Origin: Branchiostoma floridae
Lineage: Eukaryota; Chordata; Leptocardii; Amphioxiformes; Branchiostomatidae
Direction of reading: 5' to 3'
Length of the DNA stretch: 64,000 nt
Assembly (NCBI RefSeq): GCF_000003815.2
Contig: NC_049993.1
Span: 12,902,461-12,966,460 of the forward strand
How positions within the stretch are numbered: position 1 is the stretch's first letter; the number at the start of each line of letters is the position of its first letter. A model generated the notes under the pieces. That model was not told the DNA's origin. It made no database searches and saw only the letters and a program-made list of their open reading frames with translations. Positions 20,511-64,000 of the stretch are shown here, piece after piece. The position numbers and the translations under genes were made by a program.

Positions 20511-20514
20511 ACGG

Positions 20515-20808
20515 CCACTTATAAAAACCTCAATCTGGCTGTCTGTAAAATTCTACAGCCACTTATAAAAACCTCAATCTGGCTGTCTGTAAAATTCTAC
20601 AGCCACTTATAAAAACCTCAAGCTGGCTGTCTGTAAAATTCTACAGCCACTTATAAAAACCTCAAGCTGGCTGTCTGTAAAATTCTACAGCCACTTATAA
20701 AAACCTCAAGCTGGCTGTCTGTAAAATTCTACAGCCACTTATAAAAACCTCAAGCTGGCTGTCTGTAAAATTCTACAGCCACTTATAAAAACCTCAAGCT
20801 GGCTGTGA
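20515..20808. repeat. 44-bp minisatellite, 6.7 copies
   Basis: Units start at 20515, 20559, 20603, 20647, 20691, 20735 and 20779, the last one partial. Each begins 'ccacttataaaaacctcaa' and includes 'ctggctgtctgtaaaattct'. Units 1-2 read CAATCTGG while units 3-7 read CAAGCTGG, and there is almost no other variation. It lies between PHF24-like copy A and the TRIM gene. Confidence 0.97.
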
Positions 20809-24600: not shown

Positions 24601-26280
24601 AAATACATACAAAAATATGATATTCGTTAAAGACTGCTTATAGCTTATACATGTAAGCAAGCTAGAGAAATACTTGGATGCGTTTCATTGAATTTGAAGA
24701 AAATCTAAGTGCATCTCTTTTGACTTGTAGTAGGAGGAAAATATATGTATATGTATATGTAGGCTGTGCAAGATAAAATTTGTACTGTCATATGTGTATC
24801 TATTAAAGAAATAGACCATATACCGACTAGCTACCATGATAACGCTTACTTGTAAATGTTACATAAGTAATTTATGTTTTTTAAGGATTTGAAACGTCAA
24901 GAATTTTTTTCTCGCAACGACAACTTTTCCAGCTTTCCGATTATTGCCATGAGCCGTGAAAAAGTAAGCTAGAAAGGTACGTGTCGTCACACAACATAGC
25001 ATGGTCACGTCATTTTGAATCAACAACATGTTCCCAGTGCTTACTTAGTGATGCACCGTTTGTTATACAGACACGTTTGAAGACAGAAATCATACAGTAG
25101 CTTTTGTAAGGCCGTAATTCTTTCTTAACCGACACTACATTCATTCGCCACTGGGTAACGCTAGTTCCGCGGGGTAACCTATATCCGTTGTTTTTCAAAA
25201 CACGGCATTTAGGGATATGAAGTCAACGAACGCTGCTATACTTTGAAAATAAGTGCAAGATTTAAAAAAAAGTAAACTTTAGTGAAACGACCATCCGTTG
25301 ACCTGATATCCCTAAATACTTGTTCTAAAAACAACGGATAAAGGTTACCCTGTGGATAAAGGTGAAGTAGCGTTACCTCACATTTTGTCCCTCCATATTG
25401 TTTGTTGCAGGACTCAAATGCATCCCACATCGATCTTTTCACTTTTATTTTCACTTTCGCCGTCGTGCATACAAACCACCATTGACTCAAAGTCCTCGGA
25501 AGTGTTTTGGTCCAGTCAAAAGTGGTCGAAGACGCTTTCAAGCAGTTACTTGTTCGAATTCAGGAACGACCTATTTTCTTGAAGACTTCCAAAACTTGGC
25601 AGGTTTCTTGTCTTCTTTCCGTTTTCTTAGTTTCGATCTTTGGTAAAAGGTTCTTGTGTATTCACGTACAACTATAGGCAGGATCCTCTGTACTACTCTG
25701 AGAGTCTAGTGTCTGACGTGTCGATACCTGTGGTGACGTCTGTCACTTTGTGGTCAGGGACATCAGATTTTCTCGTCAGACACAAACAGTCCATCTTCGC
25801 AGAGATGTCACAGCTATCCCCACAAGCTCTCTGACGATACTTAGCCCTGCACTTTGGATCGTAAGATTCTTCTAACGTATAAAATCTCACTCCTTGGAAC
25901 ATTTGGGAAGCTCGATCATGACAGTTCTTACAGAGGAAAGAAGAACAATCCTGGCACCAAGATGTTGCCGTTTGTCTGGACGGACAGAACTGGCAGACAG
26001 GGTGCGAATCTCCACCACTGAAAAGCTCGTTTAACTGCACCAGACTGTTGATGTGACGGTTGTTGAGAAATCCGTCCACACCAGTTCCTGGTACGTCCGT
26101 TACTCTGTGACACGATGGGCAGGAGAAGGTATTCTTACCGCCGACATGTTGCTCCAGGCAGTCCCGACAAAACGTGTGAAGGCACGGCAACTCTTTCGGC
26201 TTGAGGAAGCGGCCACGACAAATGGCGCAGGTCAAAATATGTTCTGGATCGTGCAAGTCTTCCGCTTTAGCGAGCGCCAT
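21613..26280 (-). CDS. TRIM-NHL E3 ubiquitin ligase (RING, B-boxes, coiled coil, filamin, NHL)
   Basis: Two exons (26280-25841 and 23428-21613) join in phase 2 to a 751-aa protein, about the length of TRIM2/TRIM3. The RING has C18-x2-C21-x11-C33-x-H35-x2-C38-x2-C41-x12-C54-x2-C57. A first B-box follows near aa 96-125 (CQFC...CQDC...CKNC), then a second from aa 177 (CPTH...CNTC...CLRC). A charged coiled coil covers roughly aa 215-330 and a filamin-type domain about aa 377-490. Six NHL repeats run from about aa 496 to the end (GQFSCPAGVAVDRDGQIIVV is one), closing with TYNHCVKKYRY. RING TRIM proteins transfer ubiquitin, and NHL propellers bind protein or RNA partners. The join uses a weak donor (GTATCG at 25840) and a good acceptor (TTATTCTAG); it is inferred from phase. 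TRIM2/3, TRIM56 and TRIM71 relatives cannot be told apart by eye. Confidence 0.83.
23529..23750. repeat. Diverged tandem duplication in the TRIM intron
   Basis: Two units about 119 bp apart share 'accgtaYggtWgactMgaKcag', 'caWgaagttgtcggg' and 'cccgacgRgagagc'-type blocks. Each unit has GTCGGG facing CCCGAC, which could form a short hairpin. It lies just upstream of exon 2. No reading frame is conserved between the units. Confidence 0.65.
25155..25375. mobile_element. Foldback MITE, family 1, second copy
   Basis: A 221-bp element has ends 'taacgctagtt' and 'agtagcgtta', the arms containing GGTAACC, ATCCGTTGTTTTT and GATATCCCTAAATAC. It matches 17286-17502 over the ends and most of the arms. 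It lies in the TRIM intron. Confidence 0.75.
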
Positions 26281-27054
26281 TTTTTATGTCAAAACTGCAC
26301 GCTAGTCGGTCAATACTGGTAGCTAGATTCTGTCAAAACATCTTCGTAATTGGGCAGGCCAATGGGAGTTACGTAACTATTAATGGCTCGTGACACACTT
26401 GTTTCTTCATGGAAGTCAGCCTGTTATGTTTTTTCTGGGCTGTGATTGGATAAGAACATGATGGATTTATTGTGCCATGGAAACCAAGTAACGGTTGAGA
26501 TCAAACACCTGTGCCAAGGGTTCAAAGTCTATATACTATATACATGGTGTAGATTTGTCTGTTGACTTTGTGTCTGCATATGGGTATACCGGTACAATGT
26601 GACACAAGAGCGGTTACAAACACTACGACCTGCACACTTGAGGTATTGTTCAGGCCATTTGATTTTATTATATGGATGGCATCATTGGGAACCCCAAAAC
26701 TGATGCACCGTGAGAATGAAAATGGCCAAAGAAATTTGTATTCATTCTGAAATCTAAGTGGTCAGAAATGCTAAACAACTCTGAGCATACAGAGTATGGT
26801 ATAGTAAAGAGCTTCTCTAATGGTTTCGTAGACAAGCCATCTTGTGCGCCAATAAACAATGCTAAATGGATCAAAAGCGCCGACTAGTGACCAAAATTGT
26901 TATTGCATCAAGTCTAGCATAGTATACCTTGCCGTCCAACAACGGCTTTTAAACTATCAATAACCGTTTGTTCAGAGCCCACGAGAATCATCACCACCCG
27001 GACCAACACCACTAGCATTTGAAGTTTATTCTAGGTCATTAGCGAGACTTTTGA

Positions 27055-27870
27055 TGTTACAACAAGGTGAATAACTCCAAGATTTCGGCCGTACTACTTT
27101 GTACCGCGGATAACAACTGTGTTGTGTGGTCTGCAGGTGGTATTTACGCGGATTAGTCGCGGTACGTACATTCAGATAATTATATCACTCAATGTGCAAC
27201 CAATGAGCTTTTATCTTGGTGCAACACTATAAATACGATCTAAAAGCTGAATTATTATACCACCACACAGTAAAGTTCAGGCCTCGCTGAAGTGTTAATA
27301 AATAGTGTACAGATGGTGGTAATTATATAACAAGAAGGTTAATATAGTTTCAAGATTTCGGTAGTACTACTTTGTACCGCGGATAACAACTGTGTTATGC
27401 GGTCAGCGGGTGGTATTGACGTTGATTGGTCCAGTGCATGTACATTCAGATAATTCTATTGGTATAGTACTGCACATCAAACAATGTTATGTGCTGATTG
27501 GTCAAGCAGAATTAACTGACCAATCAATGTGCATTTAGTGCATGATACTCTATGTATACATACGATCTAAAAGCCGACGTTTTGCACCATCACATAGTAA
27601 AGTTGAAGTCTCGTTGGATTTTACGTTGAAGTGTTAGTAGATAGTGTACAAATGATGGTAATTATACTGCAACAAGTTGAATAATTTCAAGATTTCTGTC
27701 GCACTACTTTGTACCGCGGATAACGACGTTGTTATGCGGTCTGCAGGTAGCGCTGATTGGTCGTGTGCATGTACATTCAGATAATTCTATTGATATAGTA
27801 TTGCACATCTAACAATGTTACATGCTGATTGGTCAAGTAGAATTAATTGTCCAATCACTGAGTAGTTACT
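27055..27870. repeat. Three diverged ~300-bp direct repeats with CCAAT boxes
   Basis: Units start at about 27079, 27352 and 27689 (offsets 273 and 337). Each opens 'aagattt' and contains 'ctactttgtaccgcggata', then GCGGTC and 'tacattcagataatt'. Units 1 and 2 continue with 'tacgatctaaaagc' and a 'agtaaagtt...tagtgtaca' segment. Units 2 and 3 carry 'gctgattggtcaag' followed by CCAATCA, an inverted CCAAT pair. The block is about 0.8-1.6 kb upstream of the TRIM start. It has no coding frame; it could be an old element cluster or a duplicated upstream control region. Confidence 0.8.
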
Positions 27871-28781
27871 ATTACACACTTGTCCAGCTGCAGTATTTAT
27901 TTCATTAACTGCTAGGGGTCGCTCTTAAACTATCAATGTAAAATCGTATTTGCAGTATAATCTTCTGTCGTTCTATTTTAATTCGCCTAGTAGCGCGCTT
28001 GACACAGAGAAAGAAGGTGCCGGTTGCCCTGGTAATTGTTACTAATGAGTTGTTTTCGTTGAAATACGAAGGGAATACTGCATTAGAAGTAACTTTGATG
28101 GAAAGAAAGCCAGGGGAAGTCTGTCAGTCTAATACCACCCAATAAATTCGGCGTAAACTACTAGAGCTCGGTCTTCTGTTGACTGTGGTAGAGTTCACAT
28201 CAGTGAGGGCTGACTGAGACCGCTGACCAACACAAGTTTCTTTTCAATTCACTAATAGAAAATTACGATACAACAGATAAAGAATCGAAGTATGATTTTA
28301 CATTAAAAAAACTTAGCTTTACCTAACCCAGAATATAAAGGATCATAAAGTAATGACAATGCTTGCTTGGCTTGCTCTGGTAGCGTGAGACATGACTGGC
28401 AGTTACAGTACACGATTGCACCAGAGCGATTGTACAGAACTTCTACATAGAGGCTGTTGGTAGACTTCCAAATAGATACCTCAGTTATAAGGAAGACATT
28501 TTCAAATTGCAAACATGTATTGTAGATACAACAAGACACTTGATACAAAGTTGATAGAGCTGAGTTGAAAGTTTCAATTTTAGTACAAGGTTGGTTTCCC
28601 AAAATTTGAACGTTGCTGTTGTATTAAAGGACCTTGTCATGATTATATGTAACTTTGTTACAAGTTATATTTGGATCATTCTGCAGGGTTTGATAGTGTT
28701 TCTTTGAAAATCAGTAGAGAGAAAATATTTGAATTTTTGACCAGTATTTTATGCTAATTTTATCTTTTCAACCTCCTTGGT
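27871..28781. other. Intergenic sequence before the retrotransposon
   Basis: No gene, RNA or clear repeat was recognised. 'cttaaactatcaat' at 27924-27937 echoes 'tttaaactatcaataa' at 26948-26963, so the 27-kb repeat block may be flanked by related ends. Confidence 0.35.
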
Positions 28782-31082
28782 TATAATCCACCCCCGGGTT
28801 CGCTCAGACACAAAGCAGATAAGGATGTGATCGCGTACCTCAACGCATCAATCCAGTCAGCGGAGACGAAGTACCCCATGTCCGGAGTTGTACTACTTGG
28901 TGACACCAACCAGCTCAAGTATAAGCCATTGTGTATGCGGACTGGGTTGAAACAGGTTGTCTCGCGTCCAACCCGAGGTGAAAATCAGCTGGACTCGATT
29001 TTCACCAATCTGTCTAAACACTACAGTAGTAAACCTTTACATCTCCCTCCATTGGGAAGTTCAGATCACCAGGTACTAGTGTTACCGGGCACGCCATGGG
29101 TAAAGGAGCCTGTCTTCGTGCACCGCCGGAGAAAATGTACTCCCGAAACAGTGCGTTCGCTTGGTCTGGCACTGAACCTCGCCGATTTCTCCCCAGTGGA
29201 AAACACTCCGCATGCAGAACAGAAAGTACACCAGTTCTATTCAATTCTGCGCCCACTACTCGACAGCTTGTTACCCTTTAAGAGGGGGAAAGTCACCTCC
29301 AGGGACAAGGAGTGGATTACCCCCCGTATTAAAGGACTGATAAGAGAGAGGCAGAAAGCCTTTATGTCAGGAGACACTACCAACTACCAACGTCTACGTA
29401 ACAAGATACAACACTACATGAAGACAGCTAAAAGATCTTCCTACGAGAAAGAAGTAGACCATCTAAAACACGGTGACACACGCAAGTGGTTCAGTCTTGT
29501 GAAGTCCTTGATGGGAGCTCCGAAGAAGAGAGAAGGCAGTTTGCCGACCCCTGGAATAGACTGTGATTCACTGAGTGAACACTTCTCGTCCGTTTGGTCG
29601 AATGTTACCCGTGACATACCGAGCACTGCAGACGTCTCGGACCAGCTTTCCACTGGATCATTGCCAGAGCTCAGTATAGGACAGGTTAAACTCCAACTCA
29701 GAAAGCTCAACCCACGCAAAGCTACCGGAGACGACCACATTCCGACATGGATTCTGACTACTTTCCACGAGGAACTTGCTCCTGTGCTATGTAACATCTA
29801 CAACTCCTGTCTGCAACAGGGCATATTCCCTGAACAATGGAAGTCGGAGTTGGTCGTTCCAGTACCGAAGACATCTAAACCCAAGGGGCCTGAAGAATAC
29901 AGAAGGATCTCCCTTACCAGCTGTCTGGGTAAAGTACTGGAATCGTTTGTCCGTGTGCTGTTACAGAGAGACACTGACCACCTGATCCATGGCTCCCAAC
30001 ATGGCTTCAGGCCGGGGAGATCAACGGTGTCGGCCCTCAACCACATTACGCAAACCTGGCACGACGCGCTCAACAGTAAGCCGAAAATGGATGTACATGT
30101 GTCATTCATCGACTTTAGCCGGGCGTTTGACACAATTGACCACGGCAGTCTTCTGCATAGCTTGGCAAAGATGGGGGTGAGACGGGACCTGTGGTGTTGC
30201 TTGCGCAGTTACCTGAGTGACCGTGTACAGCGTGTCAGGTGGGGTTCGTGTATCTCCTCGCCACGCCCAGTACTCGCCGGAACCCCTCAGGGTGGGATCA
30301 TCTCGCCAACTCTGTTTGTCCTGGCCATGAACAGTCTTGACAAAGGCATCCCGATCAGTGTAGCCCCAGTTAAGTACGCTGATGACCTGACAAACACAGA
30401 ACTTCTCATGGGATCGCTACCAGGCCAAATGCAACTTGCCATCAATGAAGTTGACTCTTGGGCGAAGTCCTACAGTATGGCAGCTAATGTGAAAAAGACA
30501 AAAGACATGGTGGTCAGCTGTCGTAAGGAGGCAGTGAACCCCCCTCCACTTACTTTGAACGGGGAGAACGTGGAGCGTGTGCGGAGGTTCAAACTCCTTG
30601 GAGTGATAGTAAGCGACGACTTGTCCTGGGGCCCACACATTGAGTACATGTTGTCGAAAGTCAGCCCCAGGATTCACTACCTGCGACTGTCCAAACGAGC
30701 CGGGCTACCAGCAGACGTACTTCTCCAGATCTACAAGACATTCATCCGCCCAGTACTGGAGTACGGCTCACCGGTGTGGGGAGGTCTACCCCGCGGTCTG
30801 GCTGAAGAGCTGGAGAAAGTCCAGAGGTCCTGTTGCAGGATCATCGGTATACCCTACGAACAGCTACCTACCTTGGAGTCCCGGAGACGGGATGCGACTG
30901 TACGTGAACTGAGAAGAGTGGTGGCTGACGCCACTCACCCTTGCCAGGAGTTCCTGCAGCCGGCTACAGAGTGTCAGTACCAGCTACGACGGGCTCCCCG
31001 TTTTAAGCTGCCACTGAGCCGGTCCAACAGACATTCGCAATCGTTTATCCCCAGGGCCCTTGCTCTGTTGAATGACAATTAA
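28782..31082 (+). CDS. Endonuclease (partial) - reverse transcriptase ORF of the LINE
   Basis: An uninterrupted frame of about 766 codons is open at its 5' end, with no true ATG start (the first GTG is at 28827). It contains GVVLLGDTNQL and LGSSDHQVL, the endonuclease C-terminal motifs. The reverse transcriptase motifs are FIDFSRAFDTID (A), AGTPQGGIISPTLF (B) and KYADDLTNTE (C), followed by a thumb region with LGVIVSDDLSW and RPVLEYGSPVWGG. Both catalytic aspartates of the YADD box are present. The absence of stops and frameshifts over 2.3 kb suggests recent insertion. The missing N-terminal half of the endonuclease means it is not a complete, autonomous element. Confidence 0.9.
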   Translation, partial: YNPPPGSLRHKADKDVIAYLNASIQSAETKYPMSGVVLLGDTNQLKYKPLCMRTGLKQVVSRPTRGENQLDSIFTNLSKHYSSKPLHLPPLGSSDHQVLVLPGTPWVKEPVFVHRRRKCTPETVRSLGLALNLADFSPVENTPHAEQKVHQFYSILRPLLDSLLPFKRGKVTSRDKEWITPRIKGLIRERQKAFMSGDTTNYQRLRNKIQHYMKTAKRSSYEKEVDHLKHGDTRKWFSLVKSLMGAPKKREGSLPTPGIDCDSLSEHFSSVWSNVTRDIPSTADVSDQLSTGSLPELSIGQVKLQLRKLNPRKATGDDHIPTWILTTFHEELAPVLCNIYNSCLQQGIFPEQWKSELVVPVPKTSKPKGPEEYRRISLTSCLGKVLESFVRVLLQRDTDHLIHGSQHGFRPGRSTVSALNHITQTWHDALNSKPKMDVHVSFIDFSRAFDTIDHGSLLHSLAKMGVRRDLWCCLRSYLSDRVQRVRWGSCISSPRPVLAGTPQGGIISPTLFVLAMNSLDKGIPISVAPVKYADDLTNTELLMGSLPGQMQLAINEVDSWAKSYSMAANVKKTKDMVVSCRKEAVNPPPLTLNGENVERVRRFKLLGVIVSDDLSWGPHIEYMLSKVSPRIHYLRLSKRAGLPADVLLQIYKTFIRPVLEYGSPVWGGLPRGLAEELEKVQRSCCRIIGIPYEQLPTLESRRRDATVRELRRVVADATHPCQEFLQPATECQYQLRRAPRFKLPLSRSNRHSQSFIPRALALLNDN

Positions 31083-31855: not shown

Positions 31856-34800
31856 ATGTATACTTCGAGTTTCAGCGGTTTTAGTGGACATTTCCGAACA
31901 AAACCCACCGTAGCTTTGGGCGGAGCGAGCAGGAAGGTAGGAAGTTATATCATGAACTTGTAAATATGTGACCTGATTACGTCTGCGTTGGTCTTCTAGG
32001 CTGTTTCTTGAATCAGGAAAATTTAGAATCTCACGTATAATGGGGGAGGGGGGCATGGCGATCTGATATCTATGCTGATTTTTGGATCTTATGACTGGGT
32101 CGTAGATTTCTGTGACACAACAGATGAATAGAATAGCTAGCGTACATGTACACCGTATCTTCGATGATGATCCAAATTTATGATCCGATTTCCCTTACAT
32201 CATACTAGTAACGTTACTTTGTAAGGATGCATCGTGTGTGGTCTTCAGATGGAACATAATTTTGTTTTGTTTATGCAAGGACGTAGACGTCCTCGGCTTA
32301 TGCATAATTTAAAATTAGCAATCATCACTGATCAGAAATGTTATTTCTTTGCAATCACTCTCATAGATACTGGTAAACATTACGTTTTGTAATGTTATTG
32401 ATAGTCTGTGCATTATATGATTACTGTACATGCTGAAAATTGTGTTCGCGACCACCGCAAACATCTTTCCATTACAGTATATGACTATAGACTGACTATA
32501 TAGCTAGTGCAGTATATGGCGCTACTGCAAACTCAAAACCCGTAACCGTGAGCATTCAATATTCCTGCTACCACGAAATTGAATCCCAGCAAACTTAAAT
32601 GCATTTACAGTAGTTGATGATGAAAAATCTCATCATGAGGTTGGTTTAGCTTTGCTTGACTTCTCCCCATATCATAGTTGATATATATATACATGTGTAT
32701 GTAAGTACTATACATTATTGTACATTTTCTTACAGGAACCCAGAGATGTACTCCTCAAGAGAGCACAGGAGGAGAGAGAAAAGAGAGAGGTATGTGATGG
32801 TATCAGGTCGAGAAATAAATCTCTCCAGTTATGTAGCTTTTACTTTTCAGTACAAACCTCGTGTGTTATGCCATAGAGCAAACAAACAAACAAAAAGCTT
32901 GATTCAACTCGGCTCCTACATTGTAGGTAATTAGAGCTCGGGTCAGGTTAATTAGGGTTCAGCTAAAATGAGGTTTAAGGGGAGGGTTCGAGTTAAGCTT
33001 TGGCAGCAAAACATCTAGAAACCATCCTACTATAGGCATCATCTGTGAAGAATTGTCCTGATTTGCGTGATTCTGAGTTGTCTTGGTACTGCCAAGATGA
33101 CCGACATTCAACTTCAAGTGTCCAGTTCAGAAGGCTTTGTTGATAATTTCACATTGCACAAACCTGTCTGGTTTGGATCTTCTAAAATAGGTCAGTACTT
33201 TCTATTAGAGTAGTAACTGAGTAGTCATCATTAGAAATTCTAATGATGACTACTCAGTTCCTCATACTCTAACATTGAACATGCATTTTCCACCATATAG
33301 GAGCAGAGAAGACGCCAGAATGCCAGCATCACTATCCAGTCCTACACACGGGGCATGTGGGTCAGGCATGAACAGGTAAGGACTAGTGGTGGGTACTGGT
33401 CCATTGTACTGGTACAAAACCATTTTTCTTGTTGGACCGGTCCACATTTTGGGCCAAGCAGAAAATTTTTTCCATGCTCCCAAATTCTTAGGCTTGGTGT
33501 ACCTTTGCACTTATAACCAAAAAGGAATGTCTAAATCTGGAGTATATATGCATGTACATGTATAGTTCTTACTGAAGTCTTTTTTATCATCTCCCACAGA
33601 AAGACCATCAGAGACTGCTGTACGATGCCTGCATGACTGACATGGAGAGTGGACAGGTCACTCCTGACCCCAGTAACCTGTCCTGGCTGACCAGGAGGCT
33701 GCTGTTCTTCTACTCACAACAACTGGACACAGACAGACTGGTCAGTTAACCTCTGTTAATGTTGTTATTCATGGTACACACACCAACTGGACACAGACAG
33801 ACTGGTCAGTTAACCTCTGTTATTGTTGTTATTCATGGTACACACACCAACTGGACACAGACAGACTGGTCAGTTTTTCTGTTAGTCAGGGTATATGGCA
33901 AATAGGTCAGCATTGGACGAAGGTGTAACAAAACATTGATTTTATACAGAGAGGTGTTAGTGACTAAGCTCCTGTATACTGCAGTATAGCATAGGGTCAT
34001 AGGCCATACCCCACTGCCACCTATGAGTTCTTGAATGCTTCAACCAACACTGCCTCCACGGAACATACAGTATTTGTTGTCGAGAGAGAAGTGATATGTA
34101 GTGTACTGTATGTCAATTTTTGGCAATGCCTCAGAGGTGGAGCCCACTTTAGTATTGTTCAAATTTCTGTGATTATGGCAAATCTTAGACATAGTAGATA
34201 GTAGCTTGACAGGCTTAGGATGATTTTTCTACCAGGAAGGACCTGTATCACTGGTACTTAGCATATCTAAATCTAAGATTGATTTTTAAATGAAAAGGCC
34301 TCTATGATCTATTCTTGGAAAGGAAATTTATCATGTTGGACGTGTTTTACAGGTGAAACTATGCCAGCTCCTCCTGAAGAAGAAGAATGTAGGAAGCCTG
34401 GTGTGTACCATAGGGAAAGAGACATGGACTCACCAGATCAAACGGGTCTTACTGCTGTGCTCAAGGTAAGACTTAAGATTCCTCAAGTGATTTGTTCAAA
34501 ATCAATGTCTTAGAATTAATAAACTTGACACCTTCCACTTGTTGTGTGTCTTATTGTGGTATATGTCTGGTTTCAGCAAAGGGAGAGGGATACGCTATTC
34601 AAATAATGGTGCTTATAATTACTTTCAGTGTGTTGTATTATTGAAATATGAAAAGAAAAGTCGATGAAATGATGGTTTAGGACTTACCTTTTGGTATTAC
34701 CAAAGCAGTCTCAGAGATAGCAGGTCTAATGACAGCAGAGTAAAAAAGCTACCAGTACATTACGCCCTCTGGCAGACTATGCACAAACTCCACCACTGTA

Positions 34801-37800
34801 TTGTAGAAATACAAACATATGTACACAGGCAACTGAGGCAAGCCTCTTGCTGCAAATACGGTAAGCAAAATGGCACAGTTGTCATGCTTTTAGTGTACAT
34901 TTGTTGGTAACTGAAAAACTTTTGTTTCCTTCTTTTAGGTATCTGGAGATGATATCCCAGTCCCACAGTCCCATCGCTGTCCCCCTTCGGACGTTAGAGA
35001 CATTCACAGACACTGCGGTGTACCAGGAGAGCTCACTACTCACACAACAACAGTCAGAGATGGTGGTGTTAGAAACCATGGAGTACCTGTGTAGTCATGG
35101 TAAGTTTTAGGGATGGTAGCAGTATAGTACAGTGTTAGAAACCATGGAGTACCTGTGTAGTCATGGTAAGTTTTAGGGATGGTAGCAGTATAGTACAGTG
35201 TTAGAAACCATGGAGTACCTGTGTAGTCATGGTAAGTTTTTGGGTAATAGCATCTTGGGTTAGATGATGTGTAAGTATGTAGCTCTATGCTGAAATTTCC
35301 ATCTTTGAATAGTTTCTTTCTATAGTAACTTATTTGTTCAAATGTATTTATGGATAGTGTTCAGAATAATGAACATTGCAGTCTACTGTAATGATGATTC
35401 ATAGGAATCCTCAATTCATAAAGAAAATTTTGTAGAAAATATAAGAAGAAAACTCTTGGCTTGACTTAAAAGCATATGTGACAAAGATGTGGTGATATGA
35501 TGTAGATGTCTCAAACATACATGTATGTGCCAATAGTTACGAAAGCTACTGTATATGAAACAGTCAATATTTTTCTAAACTCTAAACTGGTATTTTTTCA
35601 GTTGCTTTAGTAACTACTATTTGGCATATCTCATTACATGTATATCTAATCATCTTCAATTTTTGAATATATGACTTAAATTCAAGTAATATTGATTATT
35701 ATCCACATTTCAAATGAAAATGTTCAACTTGTGTCTTTCCCCTAGGTTACTTCAGACACATCGGAACCCTGGTGAACAACAGAATACCTGACAGTATTGA
35801 ACACTCCACCAACCCTCCCACCCCTCTTGCTGCTACGTTACTGGAGTTTGTAGTAAAGCCACTAACTTTGATCAGCTCACAGCAAGCCAAAGACACATAC
35901 AGGCAAGTAACAGATACAATATGGTGTGGCCTTCTTTGACTAGTAATATGCTATTTCATGTACTTGTTTTTGACTAGTTTACATTATATTCTGTATTTTT
36001 AATATATGGATTTGTTTACAGTAAAGCTCCTAGATGTTTTGCATATCTAACGTTTTTTCACTGGATTATAAAATACATAGATACACACACAAAATATGCT
36101 TTGTAAAACAATTTTCCTTTAACAATGTCTAACATATAAATCACTTTAACTTCCCAGAGATACTGTTCTGTGGGCTTTGTGTAAGGATCTCCTAACTCAA
36201 CCAATCACAGAGCAGGTTAGAAACTTCATCCTGCCTGCCATGGCTGCTGGGAAACGAGGCTTCCCATTTGAGAACCTGTTGCAGGCATTGGCTCCTGTCA
36301 GTCATGATGTTTCAGCCAATGTGGGCGAGTCCTCACCTGTCAGTCATTCTAGGGTGGAGCCATCTCCTTGGTTGCTGTATTCCCTGTTAGAATTAGGAGA
36401 CTGTCAAGTAGGTAAGTGTATCTCCATGTTTTTGCTCCAGTTTTCAAGGAGAAAGTTGTAGTAGTAGTGGTATCTAATAGCAGTAGTAGTAGTAATCTAA
36501 TAGCAGCAGAAGGATGTACTTTGAGGTGTTGTTTTTGCAAAACATGAGTGCTGTATCTGTCACTTTGTTGGTGTCCCTCATTACATTTCAGTGAATCATG
36601 GCACAAACACTTTCACACGTTTGGAGATTGCCTGACCACCTTAAATGAATCTCTTTTGAATGTGAACAACTCAAGAAACGATACTTAAAAAGTTGCGATG
36701 TAAGAATCATAAAACACAGAAATGCTCTGTACTGAAATACAAGAAGGGACCCTTACATTAAAGTCAGCACCTGCCTACTTCATTGATATGGAAAGTTAAT
36801 AGAAATTCTCTGTTTAACTGTACTATGATCTAGTATACAAACAGATCAACAAGGGTGTAATCTAATGGTTAAAGTTTGAAATATTAGGTATAACCTGAAG
36901 ACATAATTGGTTATGATTGAACAGTTCTGTATCCCTTCTCCCACAGAGAGGTTGAGCCAGTCGTCCCTGACGTCCTACCTGCATGTGTTAGAGACTCTCC
37001 TGCCCACCTTACCCAGTGTGGGGAGGGCTGCACGGCACCAGGCAGACGACTCAGACTCTGAAGACGAAGGCATGGACACCTTAGACCCCATGTTCTTAAA
37101 GGTAAGTACACATGTATTTGGCGTACTATGTCTACTGTATTGTCTGTATACATGATGTCTCTTAAGAGTAGATTTTGTATGTCAATCCATTTAGGATTAC
37201 CCTTCTTACATGTACTATATGTGACTGGTACAATCATACATGGTATGTTATCACACAAAAAAACTGGTGTTGTATCTCTTAAAACATTGGGATTTCAGTT
37301 CAATTCATTGCTAGTGTAACAAGATTGTACTGTAGTGTACATTTATATAAAGTTCCAGTAATTAAAAAGATGTATATTAAATTTTTGTGTATCAAAATGA
37401 GCTTAGTTGGCAGATTTAGCATGCCTTTGATAAAACTTCCAGTATTTGTAGCGTGTTCTGCAAGTGTCAACTCTTTTCTTGGACTTAGCACAAGAAAATT
37501 AGATATAGACAATACATACATCATAACTGTCCATATAAAAAGGATTTACCGACTAATCTATCCTCCCCACCCCCCAGTCTGGCAGCCTGAACTCCCCCCA
37601 GGCCCTGAGGGAACAGTGTATCGCCATGCTGGGCTCCTGGAACCATATCAACTGTTTCCTGCGCTGCATCTTCAACGGGCTGTCCCAGGCCACACTACTG
37701 GCCCTGTGTTCTATCCTACATACTCTCATGGCCAGGCATAACCTACAGGTCCACAAGTTCAGGTACAGTAGCGTTGAACATATGTGTTATAGATAATGAG

Positions 37801-40800
37801 ATATCAGGATGTTTTAATAGTGAGTGACTGACTACACAGTGTGAGTGTATAGTGAATGTATTTGAGTAGAGTTTAACACAGAAAGGAAACGCAATTCAAT
37901 TTCTACAACTGGGTGAAAATTTTGATTAAAAAAGATTTAAAAAAAATTAACTTCTGGACGTATTCTAGAATGCCTTCCGATGCCTTTTAGTAACATTGGG
38001 GAAAAGTGATGAATGTGACTCAAAACGTCTGGAAGTAAATCTCCAATTTTCATCCAGTTGTAGAGATTGGATTGCCTTTGAACATTGTTAACCTGGATGA
38101 CTACTCTTCATAAACATAATACCGAGAGATTGTACTCTTAGAAGATTACTAACCTCCTTTGTTGGATATTTTTGTCTACTTTTTCTTTAGTTATAAGGTA
38201 TAACTTGTGGCCAACATTAACACTTATTCTGTCAATGATCCTCATAAGGGATGTTGTCCTTTTTGTCAGTGTTACTTTCAATGTTAGTCTGAAAATGTTT
38301 TCCTTTGGCCAAACAGATAGTTCAAGAAGAAACAAAAGCCATTTACTGCACTGTGTGATACTGAAACCACAGTCAGCCATAAGAGTTGTGATTACTTTGT
38401 ATTGCAGACTACTGTATACACTAGCCTTCAATGGAGCATTTCTGAGGCAACTATATGCTGCAGTGTTGGGTGCAACCAAGACAACAGCCACAGGGTAAGC
38501 AAGGAGTGCAACATGTTGTGTCTTTTCAGAAGCATTAAGTAAGCTGAATGATACAACTAGTGCAGAACACTGCATACAATGTCAGCAGAAGTGAAAAAAT
38601 TGCTCCATGCAAGGTTCTTAGATACAGTCAGACCTTTGTTTGGTGACTGTGTTTGAATAGCTGTGTTTAAACAAAAGGGACGAAAGAAAAGAAAGAAAGA
38701 AAATGGTCGCAATACACAGGAGGCCACTATCAACAGCAATAAATTTTGTACTTTCGTAATGATTTGGTCATTAATCAGAAAGTTGATATATAAGAAAAGA
38801 AGCAATGAATTTATCCACTGAACTAAAGAGTTTAATAAGAGTTAAGCAATTGATTTTGAATGTACCACAAGAAATGTAACAAAAGTGACTGAAAGAATTG
38901 ATTTTTTTTATCTCAAGAAGACTCAAGAGACTTAGGCTCTTTTTTTCTTTGTTAGCTCGAAGGTGCAGCTGCTGCAGCTGTTGGCAGGTGGCATCCCCAT
39001 GGCACCTGAGGACGCCCAGCGAGTGGTGCCCCCGCTGTCCCTGTTCTGTTCCCTCTTCAGTCATTCCCTCATGTCGCTCCATGACATCGACTTCTATGCA
39101 GAGACACCAGGTATGTTCGGCCATGGTCACAATTTGAGACAGGAAATGAGATAAACTATGATATTACATTCTGGGACCTTTGACCTAAATTCCTGCTAGT
39201 GTCTCCAATGATAGTGGGAATAAGTGCATAAATACACAGATAGACAAAGAGGCACATTGACGCACATTTTTTAGAGGGTTGAAGTCTGCCATCTCTGATT
39301 ATCTTGTTCCCCTTGGTTCCAGACCGTTCCCACGCCATGCCGTTTCGCCTGGCGGACCTGGTGTCCATGAGTGCGGTCCTGCGTGACGTGTGTGTGGGCA
39401 TCATAGAACTGGCCATACCTGACACTAAACCTACTGTAGGGGAGGACTATAGGTAAGTAACATACCTGACACCAAACCTACTGTAGGGGAGGACTATAGG
39501 TAAGCAATGATAGGGCCATTGCTGACACTAAACCTACTGTAGGGGAGGACTATAGGTAAGTAACATACCTGACACTAAACCTACTGTAGGGGAGGACTAT
39601 AGGTAAGTAATGATTATCAAATCAACATGGCCTAATGTAGATCTGAAGTTCATTATTTGCAGTTTGGGTGATATGTGTACCTAGCAGTGCTGTAGAGATT
39701 ACTTTTTTTACAGGTAGTCTCTAAATGTTACTTGATAAGAGATGAAGTACAGTACAAGTTATCAGCTTGTAGAAACAGAGTCCATCATTGGACAGAGTCC
39801 ACCAACTGTTTGAAAATGTGTGGCGTGAATTGCTGTTGTCATTTTCTCACAGGAAAGCTATGAACAGTGTCGGTGCCAAGGTGTCGGACGGAGCTGACCT
39901 TGACTTCCAGAGACAGACAGAAGACTGGGCACACCTTTTTAAGGTCAATAACTATTGTTTTTTTTGTATAACCTCTGTTAGAACAATAAGTACATGGATT
40001 AGTATGGGGTCACAGATTTCTCTTGTCACGAGTACTGTAAATGCATTTAAGTTTGCGGGGATTTAATTTTGCGGTAGTGGGAAAAGGGACTTTTCGCGGT
40101 GGTTTTAAGTTTGCGGTAGCACCATGCACTGTAGTCTCTTATTGCCATGGAAAAATGTTCGCGGTGGTTTTAAGTTTGCGGTAAGCTACCACTGTGAAAA
40201 CCACGAACATTAAACCACTGCAAAAGTTTCTGCATTTAATACCTTGTTGTTTGTATTTACAGTACTTCGACTAGTTTGCTTTATCAAGGAAATTTGGGGT
40301 TTTGTTTGATGTATTTGAGATGCAGGTATTGAAAGTTTTCTATCTCACCCCACAGGTGATCACCCATGTGGTTGCCCAGCTGAAGGCCCGTGACACCAGA
40401 CAGAGGTTCTGTCCACATGGGCACTGGTTATCCAGCAGGGTCAACATACAGGCTACCAGGGTAGGTGCAATTATACCGTGTACATGTATGTCTGGGTAGA
40501 AGGCCTCATGTTCATCTCATAAGGTGATGTAAGCGTCCCAGGAATTTGCTGTTTTCTATTTATATTTGTGAGGGTATCTTTGCAAAGGACTCCACAGTAC
40601 TGGCAGACTCAACTGCATGTCTCACAACTTTAAACTGTTGTCTAGAACCTTACAGAGTCCAGCTCTACACAGCTTGTACCTACTGTTTGCTACAGATCTT
40701 GTGCCAGTTATGCAAAATAAGCAATTCTTTTGTCGTCTTTTAAAGAGATTCTTTTATACCCCCTTATAGTTATACTACATATTACTTAACTAAAGTTTTC

Positions 40801-43800
40801 ATCATTTAAATGTTACGATGTTTCCCTAGCCGTCAGCCATGCAGCGTGGCCAGACCATGTTGAACTTCAGACATTATCCAAGCTGCTCAATGAACTTAAG
40901 NNNNNNNNNNNNNNNNNNNNNNNNNNNNNNNNNNNNNNNNNNNNNNNNNNNNNNNNNNNNNNNNNNNNNNNNNNNNNNNNNNNNNNNNNNNNNNNNNNNN
41001 CAGTCACAGAGACCAGACAACTCACTATCTTAAAGGAACTACCTTTTGTGGTGCCCTTTGAAGAGAGAGTCAAGGTTAGTATGTCTTGTTTCTGTCTTTC
41101 TTGTGCCACCAAAATACTTAGTATCGGATGTGATGAAATCAAATATGTTCCTTGCATTATTATTTTCTTTTTTTTACAGATTTTCTGACACAAGGATGAA
41201 TTTCCGTTCAATGTTGCAAGTTATATCTATTTCATTTAGTAGGTAGTAGAAATATTTTGCCAATCAACTAGTCCTAACTTTTTTGCAATTTGTACTCTTG
41301 AACAAAACTGCTTGAGTTGCACCTTAATGCATAGCAAACAAAAATGAAACAGTACATATCAATTGTTGATTATTGTCTGTGAATATTGTACAATACTGAT
41401 CAGTATTGATACTGAAGAAGGCAACAGTGGTCTGACATTGAAAATTTGATCTGTGTGTACCTTTGTGTTGGAAGAAAGTTTAGCATTGTACAATGATTAC
41501 TACCGACACAGATGGGCTTCCATGATAATGGCCTGTGCTTGTTGGGTAAGGTGTCCTGTTGATCTTTACTTTAACTTGACCTTGCCCTTGTTGCCACAGT
41601 TGTTCCAGCAGCTGATCCTGAAGGATAAAGACGAGCACCAGGCAGACTCCATGTTCTTCCTGGAGCGAGGAAACTCCCGGCTCATCGACGTCATGATTAG
41701 GAGAAACTACATCTATGAGGACGCCTACGAGAAACTGTCGCCAGAGAACGGTAGGCTCAACGTCTGAGTAACAGTTTTAATGCAAGAGAGATTGATTGCA
41801 AGGAAGAATGGTTTGAATAGCAAAAGCAGACCAGAGTAATGTGTTATGTAAGGCAGAATAACTTATTCACTCTATCATCTGTTCAAGTACAATGTACAAC
41901 TTGGATATTTCAGTAACTTTTTCCTTTTCTGCATCCTGATTATCTGCAACCCACTTTGTCTCTACAAAGACATAATCAGTAATCTTTGTATACAATCTCA
42001 TGCTGGAAGACTAATACAGTAGCAGGGGAACACATAACTTCAGTTTCATAAAATGGTAACAAAAAATATCTAGGCTATACAGTTCATCTACGCGTCTACC
42101 TACGTTACTGGGTATTTGACTTCTTTAGAGTCATTAGCTAATGAATAGTCCTATAGTTTCAATTTTTGATTTTAGTATAAATGTGTTTGTTTTTTGTAAT
42201 GATTTTTGTGTTGGTTAAAGCTTTGACAGTTTGCTGTATTCTACTGTAGCTAAGAAATTAGATTTCTGACAAAACCCAGGATAAAGCCACACCTTGACCA
42301 TGTTTCTTTTACTTGCAGAACCAAACCTGAAGAAGAGAATGAGGGTGAACCTAGTCAACTTCCAGGGTCTTGAGGAGGCAGGGATAGACGGAGGGGGGAT
42401 CTTTAGGGAGTTCCTACATGAACTACTGAAGGCAGGGTTCGACCCAAACCGCGGGTTCTTCCGTACGACAAACGATGGGCAGGTCTACCCAAACCCTGCA
42501 TCAGAACTCCTGGTGGAACACTACGCTAGACATTATTACTTCTTAGGCAGGATGTTAGGAAAGGTGAGATCATAACATTGAATAGTACTATATTTTACCA
42601 AGCTCTTTGCTACATGTAATTTGCTACCTATAGTTTTCTCAACTTGGATTGAAAGGAAATACTTGTATATTAGCTAAAGTCTTTCTTACAAGGAGCAGAA
42701 TATCTATCAATCAATCCATCAATAACCTTTATTTATCCTGGATAGCCCTGTTGGCATTTGTCGCTTATCCCAGAAGTCCAGACTTTTGTGCATTTCAGAG
42801 AAAGAGAGATGAATGAAAATGAAAAAAAAAGGTTTCAATTGAACTATTTTTCACATTGTCCAATGTCCCTATTTGTAACTTAACTACTGTATGTACTAGA
42901 GTTAATGGTTCTTGCACCATGTTGAGATAACTTCTCTACTTTCACTCCCAGGCCTTGTATGAGAACATGTTAGTAGAGATCCCCTTCGCCAGTTTCTTCC
43001 TGTCCAAGATTCTCAGTAAACACAACCATGTGGACATCGACCAGCTCCAGTCACTGGATCCTGAAGTATACAGGTCAGAAAACTCTATTATCTTTAGACT
43101 TAGATATTGAGAAAAATTGCAAAATTTAGTATATTTGTTATAAATTGTGTCCTGGATAGTGCATGTGCAGTCTTAATAAAGTGCTTAAGGAAGACATAAG
43201 GTCTAAACTGCCCAAGATGGCCACTAAAGGGGGACCAAGAAAATCTGGTCTTTGTGGACAGGTCGTTATTATAGACAGGATTGTTTAATGCTTGTGTCAA
43301 TGGGGAAAGTAATCTGTGGGACCTCCAAAAAATGGTCACATAGCCCAAGTGGTACGTTTCTAGAGATGGTCGCTTGTATACATATGTTTGATTGTACACA
43401 CATCAGATGGAGATGTGTACAGTCTAATGGAGATATCAATTAACAAACAAACAAACAAACATTTAGTCAATTGTATCAATAATGGGAAAATTCTCTAGCC
43501 AATTATACATAATGTACAATATTTAGATGTTACAATGTATATGGATTATCATTATACTGAATGTGACTCTCACATCCTATAGAAATTTGCTATTCCTGAA
43601 GAATTATGATGGAGATGTGTCTGATTTGGCCTTGAACTTCACCATTGTCAACAATGACCTTGGAGAGGCACAGGTGAGTCATTTGTTTTCTTTTCCTCTA
43701 CTTTGACACGCCACGATTAACACATTGACATATTCAGAGTTTGCTGTTGATATTTCAAAGACAGTGTCACAAAACAGATGTAACTGGAATCAGAATGTAA

Positions 43801-46800
43801 ATAATACCTTCTTGGTTCATTGTTGTTATATTCATTGGCAAGCCGCATGTTGTTATAAAAAGAGTACAATATGGCTGACTTACATACAAGAATATGATTT
43901 TATCAGTTTTGATACTGAAGAAGGTGACAGTGGTCGTTGAAAATTTGATCCGTGTATACCTTTGTGTTGGAAGAAAGTTTAGCATTGTACTATGACTACT
44001 ACCAATGCAGATGATCTTGCATGATAATATGATGATATGTCTGCATTTTTACAATACTAATGAATGTACATCTTTTAATTTTTTAGAAAAAAAAAGTTAC
44101 CCAAACCATATCAGTCTTCTGAATTAACGTATTTTGGGCTAACCAAATGTGACATGTTACTTGTAGGTTGTAGAGTTGAAACCTGGAGGCCAGAACATCC
44201 CTGTGACATCAGAGAACAGGATTCAGTACATCCATCTGGTGGCAGACTATAGACTCAACAAACAGGTCAGCACTGGTGAACTCTTCACTTTGTGTACTAG
44301 GAATTTTAATAAAAATTTGAGGCTTAGCTAAACATTTGGTTTCCCTGTAAAAAGGGGATGAAAAAGTTCACATGTGACTTTTATTGTGAGAATGAAACTG
44401 TCGAATTGGGATGTTTGTATGTTGGTACATTCTATCGCTGCAAACCAGAATATGGTTAGATTTTTGCTTGTAACACGTATACCATAGTGTCAATTTACCA
44501 TAGTGTCATGTTCTACTGATTACAAAGATCCAAGACAATACCTAGGGTAGAAGGATTTGATATCAATTATATATCATTATATTTCTTATATGGCACAATT
44601 TTGAATGAGAGACATTGAATTGGTATCATAGAGGAAAACTTGTCAGACCATTATTGTGAAAGTGTACATGTAGTGTTATCATAATGTATCTATACTCTGC
44701 CCCCCTCCCACCCCAGATCCGTGCCCACTGTATGTCCTTCAGACAGGGTCTGGCTGATGTGGTCAACCTGGAGTGGCTCAGGATGTTTGATGACCAAGAA
44801 TTGCAGGTAACAGTACACAAATTGTAAAGACATATATGACTGGTTTATTTCGAAAACAAAACTGACAGTAACATAGCAGCCTCAAGGCTGAATTACGACA
44901 TGTCATTACATCAATCATTAAAGTAGTTAAAATCGAATATCATGAATCATTACAATAGTACAGCCCTTAAAAATCGTTGCAGACGAATTAAATCAGTATC
45001 GGGATAAAGCATATAAATTAGTATTTGCAGTAATATCAGCATATCCCTTTATCGGAAGGTAAACAAATATTTAAAATACACAATAACTTACTATTTGATA
45101 CAAAGCACAAACATACAGGTTACAATTACTTGTTCAAAAGACGGACCATGAAGGGTACAGCGCTGTTGCGATAGCGTTCAGTTCTACAGCGAGTAGTGTT
45201 CAGTTTGTGGGATGACCTTGTCTGTCTACCACTGATCTCACCTCTGGCTGGTGGCAGTAAGTGCAAGAAATGATCGGACTGACTGAGAGAGTTAGCAAAG
45301 TGTGTGATCAGTTCAAGACGTCGTGCTTGTAGCGAAGGTAGACCCAAGTCAGAACAGGCATCAGTGTAAGACGTGTATCTCTGTCCCAGTATTATGCGCA
45401 CAGCTCTCCGTTGGACCTTCTCGATCCTGTCACTAAGTGCAGTGGTGAGCCCGGAGTGCCAAACGGGGGCACAATACTCCAGGACTGGTCGGATGTAAGT
45501 CACATACACTGTGACTAGGTCGCCGATGGACACGTTAAAGTGTTTCAGATTACGGAGGAGGTAAAGGCGTCGGCTAGATTTGTTACAAATGTTGTCAACG
45601 TGAGAGTTCCAACGTAGGTCAGCCTGCAGAAACACGCCCAGGATCCTCATCACTGGCACCTGTTGTAGCTCTGTGTTGTCAATCATGAGAGATGGTGTTG
45701 GGTACGGGACCTTCCTGAAATGGATGTACATAACTTGACATTTCTTGGGATGCAACTTCATATGGCTGGTGCGAGACCAGTGGTCCAGGTCGTTCAAGTC
45801 CTGTTGCATATGAGACATACTTAGGTTGGGGGTTCTTATTTCCAAGAGATTCAGGTCGTCAACGAATTTCCAGCGTTTGGAGGCAGCCTGATGTGCGGCG
45901 CTGTTGATATACGCAAGGAAAATCAACGGCCCGAGTAGAGTGCCCTGGGGTAATCCGCAGGTAACCTTCATGCTGTCGGAAAGTGTTCCATGGTAGCGTA
46001 CAACCTGGCTCCGGTTTGAGAGGAAGTCTACGATCCATCTTGTCACAGAGGGGCGCAGGCCAAGATCAAGCAGACGTTGGATAGCGAGGTTGTGACACAC
46101 ACGGTCGAACGCCTTGCTATAATCGGTTGACACAAGAGAGCACAGGACGCCGGGTTTGTCGGTGGCTTTGAAAACCTCGTTGGTCAGGTCTAGGAGGCAA
46201 TGTGTTGTCGATTTGCCCTTGAGGCAGCCGTACTGTTGAACATCGATTTGAGGAACGATGTCGGTCAGCACCCACCGCGAGACAAAATATCAATATTTTA
46301 TATATGATATGGCTGTCCCATTTGAAAAAAACAACAACACAGTCATGATCTTTTATCTATATAATACGATATTTACCAACTTATCAGATTGTTCTGTACC
46401 ATCACCTGTGTATCTTTGTAAAGAATAGTTTCACCCTCTTAGGTTTTGAGAATGGAATAGCTACAATGTATAACTGAACTGGACAAAATTCTTGTAGGAG
46501 GTTAGAATGCTAATGTCACTAAGTCATTGAATTTAGACTCACTAATAATGTTTCTTCCTGTTGAAGGTGGTGATTTCTGGATCCCAACAGCCTGTAGATG
46601 TTACTGATCTAAGGAAGCACACAAACTATTCAGGTAAGGCAACAAATGCTTAAACTTACCTTACGTAAACAGCATACAACTTTTCTGGGGAAAACCCACA
46701 TGAACTTAAACTTAGCAATGTTTTGATTGTCATATAGTGTTTCCTTGTCTTTAAAGTGTTGCAGGAATGCACAATACATTCTCAAAACTGTTTACTGAGT

Positions 46801-47721
46801 CGTTGTTGTTTGTTATGTACATGTAGGTGGTTACACAGACGAGCATCCCGTGATCGAGACATTCTGGAAGGTTGTACGAGAGTTCACCAACGGACAGCGC
46901 AGACACCTGCTCAAGTTTGTCACCAGCTGTTCACGTCCTCCTCTCCTGGGCTTCAAGGTCGGTACCACGTACAGCTGCAGGTCTTTGGGTGTGTGTGTGT
47001 AAAGCTGCTGGGGTTGTGTTTAAACTGTGAGCACTATAAGTAACCCATCATACCTATTGATAATAGTACTTTACCGAGTTTACCTCAGATTTTCACTGTG
47101 CATGGTGATTCATTGTGGGTTGAAGGCCCCTTAGACATAAACATCTGGACTAGGAGTGGTTACTACCAGAATGGTGTGCTGGTAAAAAAAAATGTTTTAA
47201 AATTTTCTTGTTGGACTGGTCCGAAAAAAAACCCCAGACCTGGACAAAATCAGTGAACCGGATTTTGGACTGATTAGAAAATGACCAGATTATACCGGCA
47301 GGCATTCACATGTTTTTTGGGCTTACTAGCCCAAGAAAAACACAAGAGCAAAGTAGAGGAGAGTTTATTGTCATTTTTATCAAGTTTCTACAGTCAAACT
47401 TAGACTAGGTTAACAGAGGTATTAGTGTTGTTTAGTTTGCCACTTATCTTCTTCCATTCTCTAGAGGTGGCCTTACCATCGTAGTCTGTTAAATCTCACT
47501 GTGTCCTGTACATTATGTTCAACCAACTCATTGTTTGTTTATTACCCCAGGAGTTGTACCCAGCCTTCTGTATCCACCATGGTGGGCCTGAGGAGGACCG
47601 ACTCCCCACCGCCAGCACCTGTATGAACCTGCTCAAACTGCCCGAGTTTCAGGATGAGGAAACCATGAGGAGCAAGCTACTGTACGCCGTGGAGTCCAAC
47701 GCTGGCTTCGAACTCAGCTAG
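31856..47721 (+). CDS. UBE3C: HECT-type E3 ubiquitin-protein ligase UBE3C
   Basis: Exons: 31856-31936, 32736-32789, 33301-33375, 33600-33740, 34353-34465, 34939-35099, 35746-35902, 36158-36411, 36947-37101, 37578-37762, 38408-38494, 38956-39110, 39323-39452, 39853-39943, 40356-40460, (40830 into a gap, out by 41074), 41600-41750, 42319-42563, 42952-43073, 43583-43673, 44167-44265, 44717-44806, 46567-46633, 46827-46957, 47551-47721. Phases agree throughout: 648 aa precede the gap region and 388 follow exon 41074, close to human UBE3C (1083 aa). The N-terminus has VALGGASRK and an IQ-like [16 protein letters not shown]. The HECT domain has [46 protein letters not shown] and the catalytic cysteine in [13 protein letters not shown], and ends GFELS. 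The human protein binds the proteasome and extends ubiquitin chains. The intron after 35902 has a GC donor. The exon at 40830 is uncertain. Confidence 0.95.
32422..32612. mobile_element. Foldback MITE, family 2, degenerate copy in UBE3C intron 1
   Basis: The left end 'tactgtacatgc...gttcgcgaccaccgc' and right end 'aacttaaatgcatttacagta' match the ends of the element at 61414-61625 in the same orientation. The interior is decayed. Confidence 0.65.
33215..33259. repeat. Perfect 45-bp palindrome in UBE3C intron 2
   Basis: Arms of 22 bp (33215-33236 and 33238-33259) are exact reverse complements around one A at 33237. A shorter imperfect match ('tagagta') extends outwards on both sides. It ends 41 bp before the exon at 33301. 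Confidence 0.95.
33720..33874 (+). repeat. 64-bp tandem repeat across a UBE3C 5' splice site
   Basis: About 2.4 units start at 33720, 33784 and 33848. Each carries the last 21 exon bases ('caactggacacagacagact' plus g), the donor GTCAGT and, in the first two, the intron sequence beyond. The true exon ends at 33740; the later copies are intronic decoys. Reading on through the first donor meets TAA after GTC AGT. Confidence 0.97.
35066..35237 (+). repeat. 66-bp tandem repeat across a UBE3C 5' splice site
   Basis: About 2.6 units start at 35066, 35132 and 35198. Each holds 34 exon bases (from 'gtgttagaaaccatggagta' to the donor) and then GTAAGT. Donors lie at 35100, 35166 and 35232. Use of the later donors would add an in-frame TAG right after the first (GGT AAG TTT TAG). 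Confidence 0.97.
39421..39607 (+). repeat. 47/56-bp tandem repeat across a UBE3C 5' splice site
   Basis: Four units start at 39421, 39468, 39524 and 39571. Each repeats the last 32 exon bases ('gacactaaacctactgtagg' onward) and GTAAGT or GTAAGC. Donors lie at 39453, 39500, 39556 and 39603. Extension past the first donor gives AGG then TAA. Confidence 0.97.
40033..40240. mobile_element. Foldback MITE, family 2, copy in a UBE3C intron
   Basis: It begins 'tactgtaaatgcatttaag', is full of GCGGT/TTCGCGG motifs ('ttcgcggtggttttaagt'), and ends 'ccactgcaaaagtttctgca'. It is the reverse orientation of the copy at 61414-61625. It lies between UBE3C exons ending 39943 and starting 40356. Confidence 0.8.
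40901..41000. other. Assembly gap (100 N) inside UBE3C coding region
   Basis: Exactly 100 N, probably a fixed-size placeholder. It removes the end of the exon begun at 40830, any intron behind it and the start of the exon ending at 41074 ([19 protein letters not shown]). About 20-30 residues of protein seem to be missing compared with human UBE3C. Confidence 0.95.
41401..41530 (+). repeat. Dispersed repeat family 3, copy a
   Basis: It carries 'ctgaagaaggcaacagtggt', 'gaaaatttgatctgtgtgta', 'ttggaagaaagtttagcatt' and ends near 'catgataatgg'. Related copies lie at 43899-44030 and 54404-54500, all in the same orientation. It is probably the conserved end of a transposable element; this copy is in a UBE3C intron. 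Confidence 0.8.
42695..42790 (-). mobile_element. LINE 3'-end fragment (tentative)
   Basis: 'tcaatcaatccatcaataac' followed by CTTTATTTATCC, read on the minus strand, gives an AATAAAGGTTATTGAT-GGATTGATTGA tail. This is the usual look of LINE 3' ends with short tandem tails. No coding part remains. Confidence 0.4.
43899..44030 (+). repeat. Dispersed repeat family 3, copy b
   Basis: Matches copy a: 'ctgaagaaggtgacagtggt', 'ttgaaaatttgatccgtgta', 'gtgttggaagaaagtttagc', then 'catgataat'. It lies in a UBE3C intron, 2.5 kb from copy a. Confidence 0.8.
44835..46285 (-). mobile_element. 5'-truncated LINE, antisense in a UBE3C intron
   Basis: The minus-strand fragment starts within the reverse transcriptase domain (about 46285) and ends about 290 bp after its stop codon, near an AATAAA-like tail (plus-strand 'ggtttatttcg', 44841-44851). 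It fills most of the intron between UBE3C exons ending 44806 and starting 46567. It is unlike the LINE at 28.8 kb in its motif C and 3' end, so a second family is present. Confidence 0.88.
45126..46285 (-). pseudogene. Truncated reverse transcriptase ORF
   Basis: About 385 codons are open with no internal stop. Motifs in order are [22 protein letters not shown] (A), [13 protein letters not shown] (B) and [10 protein letters not shown] (C, FVDD instead of YADD), then [26 protein letters not shown] and a C-terminal domain. The endonuclease and the first part of the reverse transcriptase are missing, and there is no start codon in context, so it is a dead 5'-truncated copy despite its clean frame. 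It resembles CR1/L2-like elements of invertebrate chordates. Confidence 0.85.
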
Positions 47722-63212: not shown

Positions 63213-64000
63213 TTTTAGGAACGTTTTTGGGGAGCGAGAAAAGATGGCTGTCTGTTCTGGAGAGTGGGAAGTCAGATTGTGTCAGCTTGCCCCGCATGCA
63301 AATCAGTCTGCGGTGTCTGGTTGCCAAAACCGCAGACAGGGAACAGACCCCGGGACAAACCAATAATGTGTACAATAGGGGTGTTGTATACACAAACGCT
63401 TTTTGAAAGTTTTGTATCAGAACGCAAATTTACTCATCCTACCGTACAGTTATAATGCTTCAGTCAGTTGTTCCTGTAACAAGTGATTCTAGATGGTGTA
63501 TCAAGTGTTTTATTGGCTTAGAAATACAACAGAAGAAATAAAGTTATTTTGTTCTTGAAAATGTGGTTCAGTCGATTATTCAACTCCATGTGGGGACGAT
63601 TAGACAGCGGGGAACCGTTAGTGCTTTGCGTGGATCGGGAATAGATGCAAATCAGTGCCACGTCACATTTTTCAGGTCCACGTTGAGAAAATAAATGAAT
63701 TCATGAAGTTGTTGTGTTTTCTTATCGGATCAGTAATTTCTATGTCCAGCTGACGAAGCAAAGTTAGTGTAGAAGGCTGGCGTGTTTACTCAGCTTCAGG
63801 GCCATAGTATAACCAATGAGGTTATATAGACCCATATAAGATATCAAACCTCCCTGGCTGGTATAATAAATAAATCACGATACACAGCGACCAAGGACCT
63901 AGCCTGGATATCATACCCCAACCTCAAAATATATCTTTCGTGTTGCACGATAGATACTTGAGATCGGGCTGGGGTTTGGTGACCAGGCTACCAAGTACTC
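63213..64000. other. Upstream region of FKBP copy 2
   Basis: The 5' flank of FKBP copy 2 has no TATA box I can assign. No other gene begins here. The foldback element at 63901-63989 closes the window. Confidence 0.4.
63901..63989. mobile_element. Small foldback element, family 4, second copy
   Basis: It starts 'agcctggatatcatacccca' and ends 'ggggtttggtgaccaggct', with 'cacgatagatacttgagat' inside. It matches 59418-59503 in ends, length (89 bp) and core. Confidence 0.8.

Follow-up and report, generated by a model that had tools for sequence, protein, structure and literature searches.

Tandem repeats that lie across exon/intron boundaries have been termed mirages in amphioxus, and they have been put in print for Adh3, troponin C, the globins and PGBD5 (PMC3087553, PMC3902484; these and the other papers cited are represented here by excerpts). 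Published repeat units measure 10–72 bp in Adh3 and approximately 150–160 bp in the globins, while those of PGBD5, which are found at splice sites, measure 60 and 108 bp (PMC3087553, PMC3902484). The globin paper, which cites Adh3 and further mirage loci, describes a mirage in BflGb6 with six repeat units in one haplotype and three in the other, and reports that BflGb9 also has a mirage (PMC3087553). The data from Adh3 and the globins suggest that mirages leave regular splicing undisturbed, although the copies could be cryptic sites, and mirages have been proposed as a source or raw material of new introns (PMC3087553). For PGBD5, re-sequencing provides a strong argument against assembly error, and the paper cites troponin C as well (PMC3902484). 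Complete or partial exons within introns, some of them carrying splice sites, are described in the VCBP paper (PMC2632668), and the excerpts of the amphioxus huntingtin and opsin papers contain no boundary-spanning repeats. Among the matches listed in a search of the open-licence literature, made with no query specific to UBE3C, there was no genome-wide survey of mirages.

Here, we describe three arrays in one UBE3C-like gene, located in a stretch of 64,000 nucleotides of the Branchiostoma floridae genome (contig NC_049993.1, positions 12,902,461 to 12,966,460; hereafter the window, in which positions are counted from its first base). Judged by their sequence, these arrays are best read as a dense new example of amphioxus mirages, and thus of a kind that has already been described. 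They also resemble intron gain by tandem duplication, as known from ATP2A1, potato RdRp and fission yeast (PMC4974935, excerpt), in that a segment with a splice signal is duplicated and extra donors come to lie near the exon, but they differ from it in that an existing donor is copied together with the start of its intron. That three of the 24 donors modelled in one gene carry a mirage suggests that mirages may be widespread in this genome. If they are, the attraction of duplication to splice donors would become testable from ordinary sequence data, as would the way in which the spliceosome selects the first of several equal donors spaced by fewer than 70 bases.

The UBE3C-like gene and its arrays

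The original prediction named the gene UBE3C, and this identity is borne out by a piece of the HECT region at 42330–42563, which matches 'Ubiquitin-protein ligase E3C' (6k2c_A) at 2.8e-35 with the runner-up at 4.7e-05, and by the last exon, which matches HECT at 6e-17. The gene model comprises 24 donors and 23 acceptors and is only partial around the N gap at 40901–41000. Exons 1–15, when joined via the first donors, form one continuous frame free of stops, and the predicted exon ends at 33740, 35099 and 39452 hold with it; the exons after the 15th have been placed but are unjoined, and the continuity of the frame refers to the first 15. Exon 7 has an apparent GC donor (CAG/gcaagt) at 35902.

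Coordinates of the UBE3C-like gene and of the exons and arrays discussed (window positions; copy numbers and percentages of matches from Tandem Repeats Finder)
Feature	Position	Strand	Description
UBE3C-like HECT ubiquitin-ligase gene, coding part	31856-47718	+	exon peptides placed with splice signals
Exon 4 of the UBE3C-like model	33600-33740	+	ends CTG/gtcagt, phase 0; first donor of array 1
Array 1	33711-33875	+	64-bp unit (exon -30 to intron +34), 2.6 copies, 97% matches
Exon 6 of the UBE3C-like model	34939-35099	+	ends CATG/gtaagt, phase 1; first donor of array 2
Array 2	35066-35244	+	66-bp unit (exon -34 to intron +32), 2.7 copies, 99% matches
Exon 13 of the UBE3C-like model	39323-39452	+	ends TATAG/gtaagt, phase 2; first donor of array 3
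Array 3	39411-39614	+	period 103, 2.0 copies, 96% matches

Tandem copies of exon end and donor had been proposed for three exon ends of this gene, and Tandem Repeats Finder confirms them there, that is at 3 of the 24 modelled donors. With the copies registered on the donor, donors follow positions 33740, 33804 and 33868 in array 1, 35099, 35165 and 35231 in array 2, and 39452, 39499, 39555 and 39602 in array 3; nine of these ten had been listed before, and the third of array 1 (after 33868) had been overlooked. Array 3 is composed of a 47-bp and a 56-bp unit, and this pair of 103 bp is itself duplicated, with an inner stretch at 39414–39610 detected at period 47; the mixed 47/56 period given for it earlier holds. 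The 21–34 exon bases that each copy was said to carry describe the strictly identical part correctly, but when mismatches are included the exon part extends to -30, -34 and -39/-42, respectively.

Like the mirages of other amphioxus genes, the arrays are short tandem duplications over an exon/intron boundary that leave the coding exon intact. The unit spans the boundary in all three, which are registered on the donors at 33740, 35099 and 39452; the copies carry a splice signal, as do many, though not all, published copies, and add seven extra donors; and the unit lengths of 47, 56, 64 and 66 bp lie within the published range. In contrast to PGBD5 with its two arrays and to BflGb6, where the mirage is at an acceptor, the UBE3C-like gene has three arrays, all at donors. 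The 103-bp double unit of array 3 is unlike published mirages. The Rogers model, in which an exonic duplication bearing AGGT creates an intron, does not describe these arrays, since the copied segment takes in the beginning of an intron that was already present, and no additional intron is needed at these sites for a complete frame.

Donor strength and coding consequences

Scored with a matrix derived from the 24 donors of the gene, the seven extra donors in the arrays reach values of 8.96–11.44. Only 12 of the 1100 GT dinucleotides elsewhere in the gene score at least 8.0 as rounded, and seven of these 12 are the array copies. It had been predicted that a transcript continuing beyond the first donor runs into a stop codon at once and that only the first donor gives full-length protein. 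Stops are indeed reached after 2, 3 and 1 codons in arrays 1, 2 and 3, and because of these early stops the sequence predicts full-length protein from the first donor of each array only; in array 3 the immediate stop arises by construction, since a phase-2 donor with GTAA produces it automatically. A stop within three codons follows all three first donors of the arrays vs 2 of 12 donors examined elsewhere in the gene (p 0.022 by a post hoc Fisher test), a comparison that covers 15 of the 24 donors of the gene. The first donor is presumably the one used in the mRNA, and use of a later donor would yield early-stop transcripts that would then be destroyed.

Folding that hides the later donors was considered and rejected, as the first donor does not stand out as the most accessible one. 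The predicted mean unpaired values are 0.01 for the first donor vs 0.08 and 0.03 for the later ones in array 1, 0.35 vs 0.41 and 0.34 in array 2, and 0.29 vs 0.21, 0.29 and 0.10 in array 3. Compensation for weak donors was rejected because the three array donors are scattered across the score ranking, where they are 6th (tied), 10th and 16th (tied) of 24 by leave-one-out score; the donor at 33740 belongs to the lower half.

Origin of the arrays and their placement on donors

With a probability of about 0.8, we consider the arrays to be three amphioxus-type mirages, i.e., minisatellites that grew out of tandem duplications straddling exon/intron boundaries. Such an array would start with the tandem duplication of a 47–66 bp segment across an existing boundary, after which the resulting minisatellite would be enlarged and its copies kept alike via slippage or unequal exchange; the true exon would retain the first donor, and the copies with their donors would fall in the intron. 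The number of copies probably varies between haplotypes. A local duplication process starting near donors, as put forward in the original prediction, is a fair reading, but mirages had by then been described in amphioxus (PMC3087553, PMC3902484), which went unmentioned.

Copies 1 and 2 of array 1 differ at 3 of 64 positions and those of array 2 at 0 of 66, while array 3 compared at a lag of 103 differs at 4 of 101; exon blocks of 30–34 bases have 0–2 differences between copies. Since this divergence is similar to or below the SNP polymorphism of 4.39% given for a lancelet (PMC4284660, excerpt), the arrays look either young or kept alike by exchange between copies. The best explanation of the sequence of array 3 is a history of two or more events with nearly shared end points, namely a 47-bp duplication (-39 to +8) and a 103-bp duplication, which would have started near -42 and ended near +14 of the second copy. 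In each array, the match of the last copy ends soon after the donor consensus and short of the unit end, at about +7, +13 and +8 in arrays 1, 2 and 3, so that the 3' edge is not what plain head-to-tail multiplication would leave. Support for the tails after the last copies being diverged copies of the unit's intronic portion is weak and uneven: depending on method and start point, array 1 gives p values of 0.04–0.07, array 2 of 0.07–0.43 and array 3 of 0.012 or 0.69. A source for the intronic portion of the unit at another place in the gene was rejected for arrays 1 and 2, where the longest exact matches of 11 and 9 bases are comparable to those in shuffled sequences (0.16 and 0.72).

The arrays stand apart from the remainder of the gene. 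The best downstream self-match scores 46.5, 54 and 56 at the three array donors vs 7–14 at the other 21 donors, and it is likewise 7–14 at the 23 acceptors; at these splice sites no diverged mirages were found by downstream self-match, and old, decayed arrays are therefore not visible there. At 119 intron control positions, the top five self-matches fall within the arrays and the others are at most 18. When 47 boundary segments were compared with the window by BLAST, just two weak opposite-strand matches came up beyond the arrays, near the acceptors 38408 and 39853. The association of the duplications with donors is suggestive, and a possible, if clearly less probable, account does without a donor-linked process: duplications would arise anywhere, exonic ones would be removed, and intronic or donor-crossing ones would be tolerated since the first donor works. 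The arrays would then still be mirages by anatomy, which makes this account compatible with the mirage reading. When whole arrays are placed uniformly in the gene, 3 of 3 fall on donors with a p of 0.016 (0.0145 under a wider margin), or of 0.081 when acceptors are also counted, which leaves room for chance, as does the position of other tandem arrays of the window, e.g., 20498–20806, off the UBE3C splice sites. However, uniform placement of the founding units (64, 66 and 47 bp) gives a p of 3.2e-4 for donors and of 2.4e-3 for donors or acceptors, and at least three of nine tandem loci placed uniformly in the window fall on a UBE3C donor with a p of 0.009, a count that leaves out a long-lag repeat cluster starting at 27078–27526 and a weak pair at 23532 (3 of 11 with both). 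Against chance also stands that, in about 13.3 kb of UBE3C introns, the sole other self-match passing the scan at lags of 40–500 is a weak pair at 40093, and that similar siting has been published for other amphioxus genes, though by exon-focused observers. Since the arrays had been noticed, and picked for looking odd, before any test was run, all of these tests are post hoc, and the earlier view that three such events are hard to explain by chance holds moderately, with p between 3.2e-4 and 0.081 depending on the null.

A stronger form of the mirage reading, in which donors are hot spots of recurrent duplication in this genome, perhaps via repair between very different alleles, appears doubtful to us. 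The end points of the duplications lie about 30–42 bases upstream and 7–34 bases downstream of the donor, and at one site they do so twice. If alleles exchanged in this way, divergent alleles would pair only at the conserved exon end and donor, and each event would copy these and import the start of another allele's intron; on this view, the weak and uneven likeness of the tails to the unit's intronic portion would reflect divergence between alleles. It is very improbable that the extra donors are a selected redundancy or a switch to early-stop transcripts that tunes the level of UBE3C. All seven have a strong consensus behind an early stop, and the excess of early stops at array donors fits such a role, but with copies this similar no selection is required to explain why the donors are intact, the stop in array 3 is automatic, and the Adh3 and globin mirages reportedly leave regular splicing alone, though use of cryptic sites is possible (PMC3087553, excerpt). 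Selection that tolerates poison-exon forms, as suggested originally, is without direct support, and the copies would extend the 3' end of the exon; the early stops fit it weakly. An artefact of assembly or sequencing, through stutter or through two haplotypes joined head to tail, is very improbable too. There are three N gaps in the window, the BflGb6 mirage was apparently misassembled in the draft genome (PMC3087553, excerpt), and the repeat numbers of PGBD5 differ between two assemblies (PMC3902484, excerpt). However, the copies have single-base and spacing differences, and arrays of 165–204 bp fit into one ordinary read.

Other features of the window

The self-match scan of the window returned 33 segments, at least seven of which are in a CAGA microsatellite at 13341–13428. 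A 44-bp minisatellite at 20498–20806, with seven copies and 98% matches, is located past the 3' end of a TRIM-NHL-like gene. On the minus strand at 21613–26283, an open reading frame with RING and B-box and one with B-box, filamin and NHL domains probably belong to one gene; between them is a decayed second RING-like piece (23705–23908, minus strand), which aligns to the first reading frame with an uncontrolled score of 37. The region 51100–63290 on the minus strand contains, as read from the frames, apparently a tandem pair of genes that encode isomerases of the FKBP type bearing EF hands, which we take to be FKBP14-like. One of the three pieces scanned from these genes has weak Pfam EF-hand matches, the scan having been placed outside the FKBP pieces at 59950–60250 and 53950–54250. 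Two long open reading frames, at 28758–31082 on the plus strand and at 45126–46289 on the minus strand inside a UBE3C intron, resemble by eye reverse transcriptases of the LINE type.
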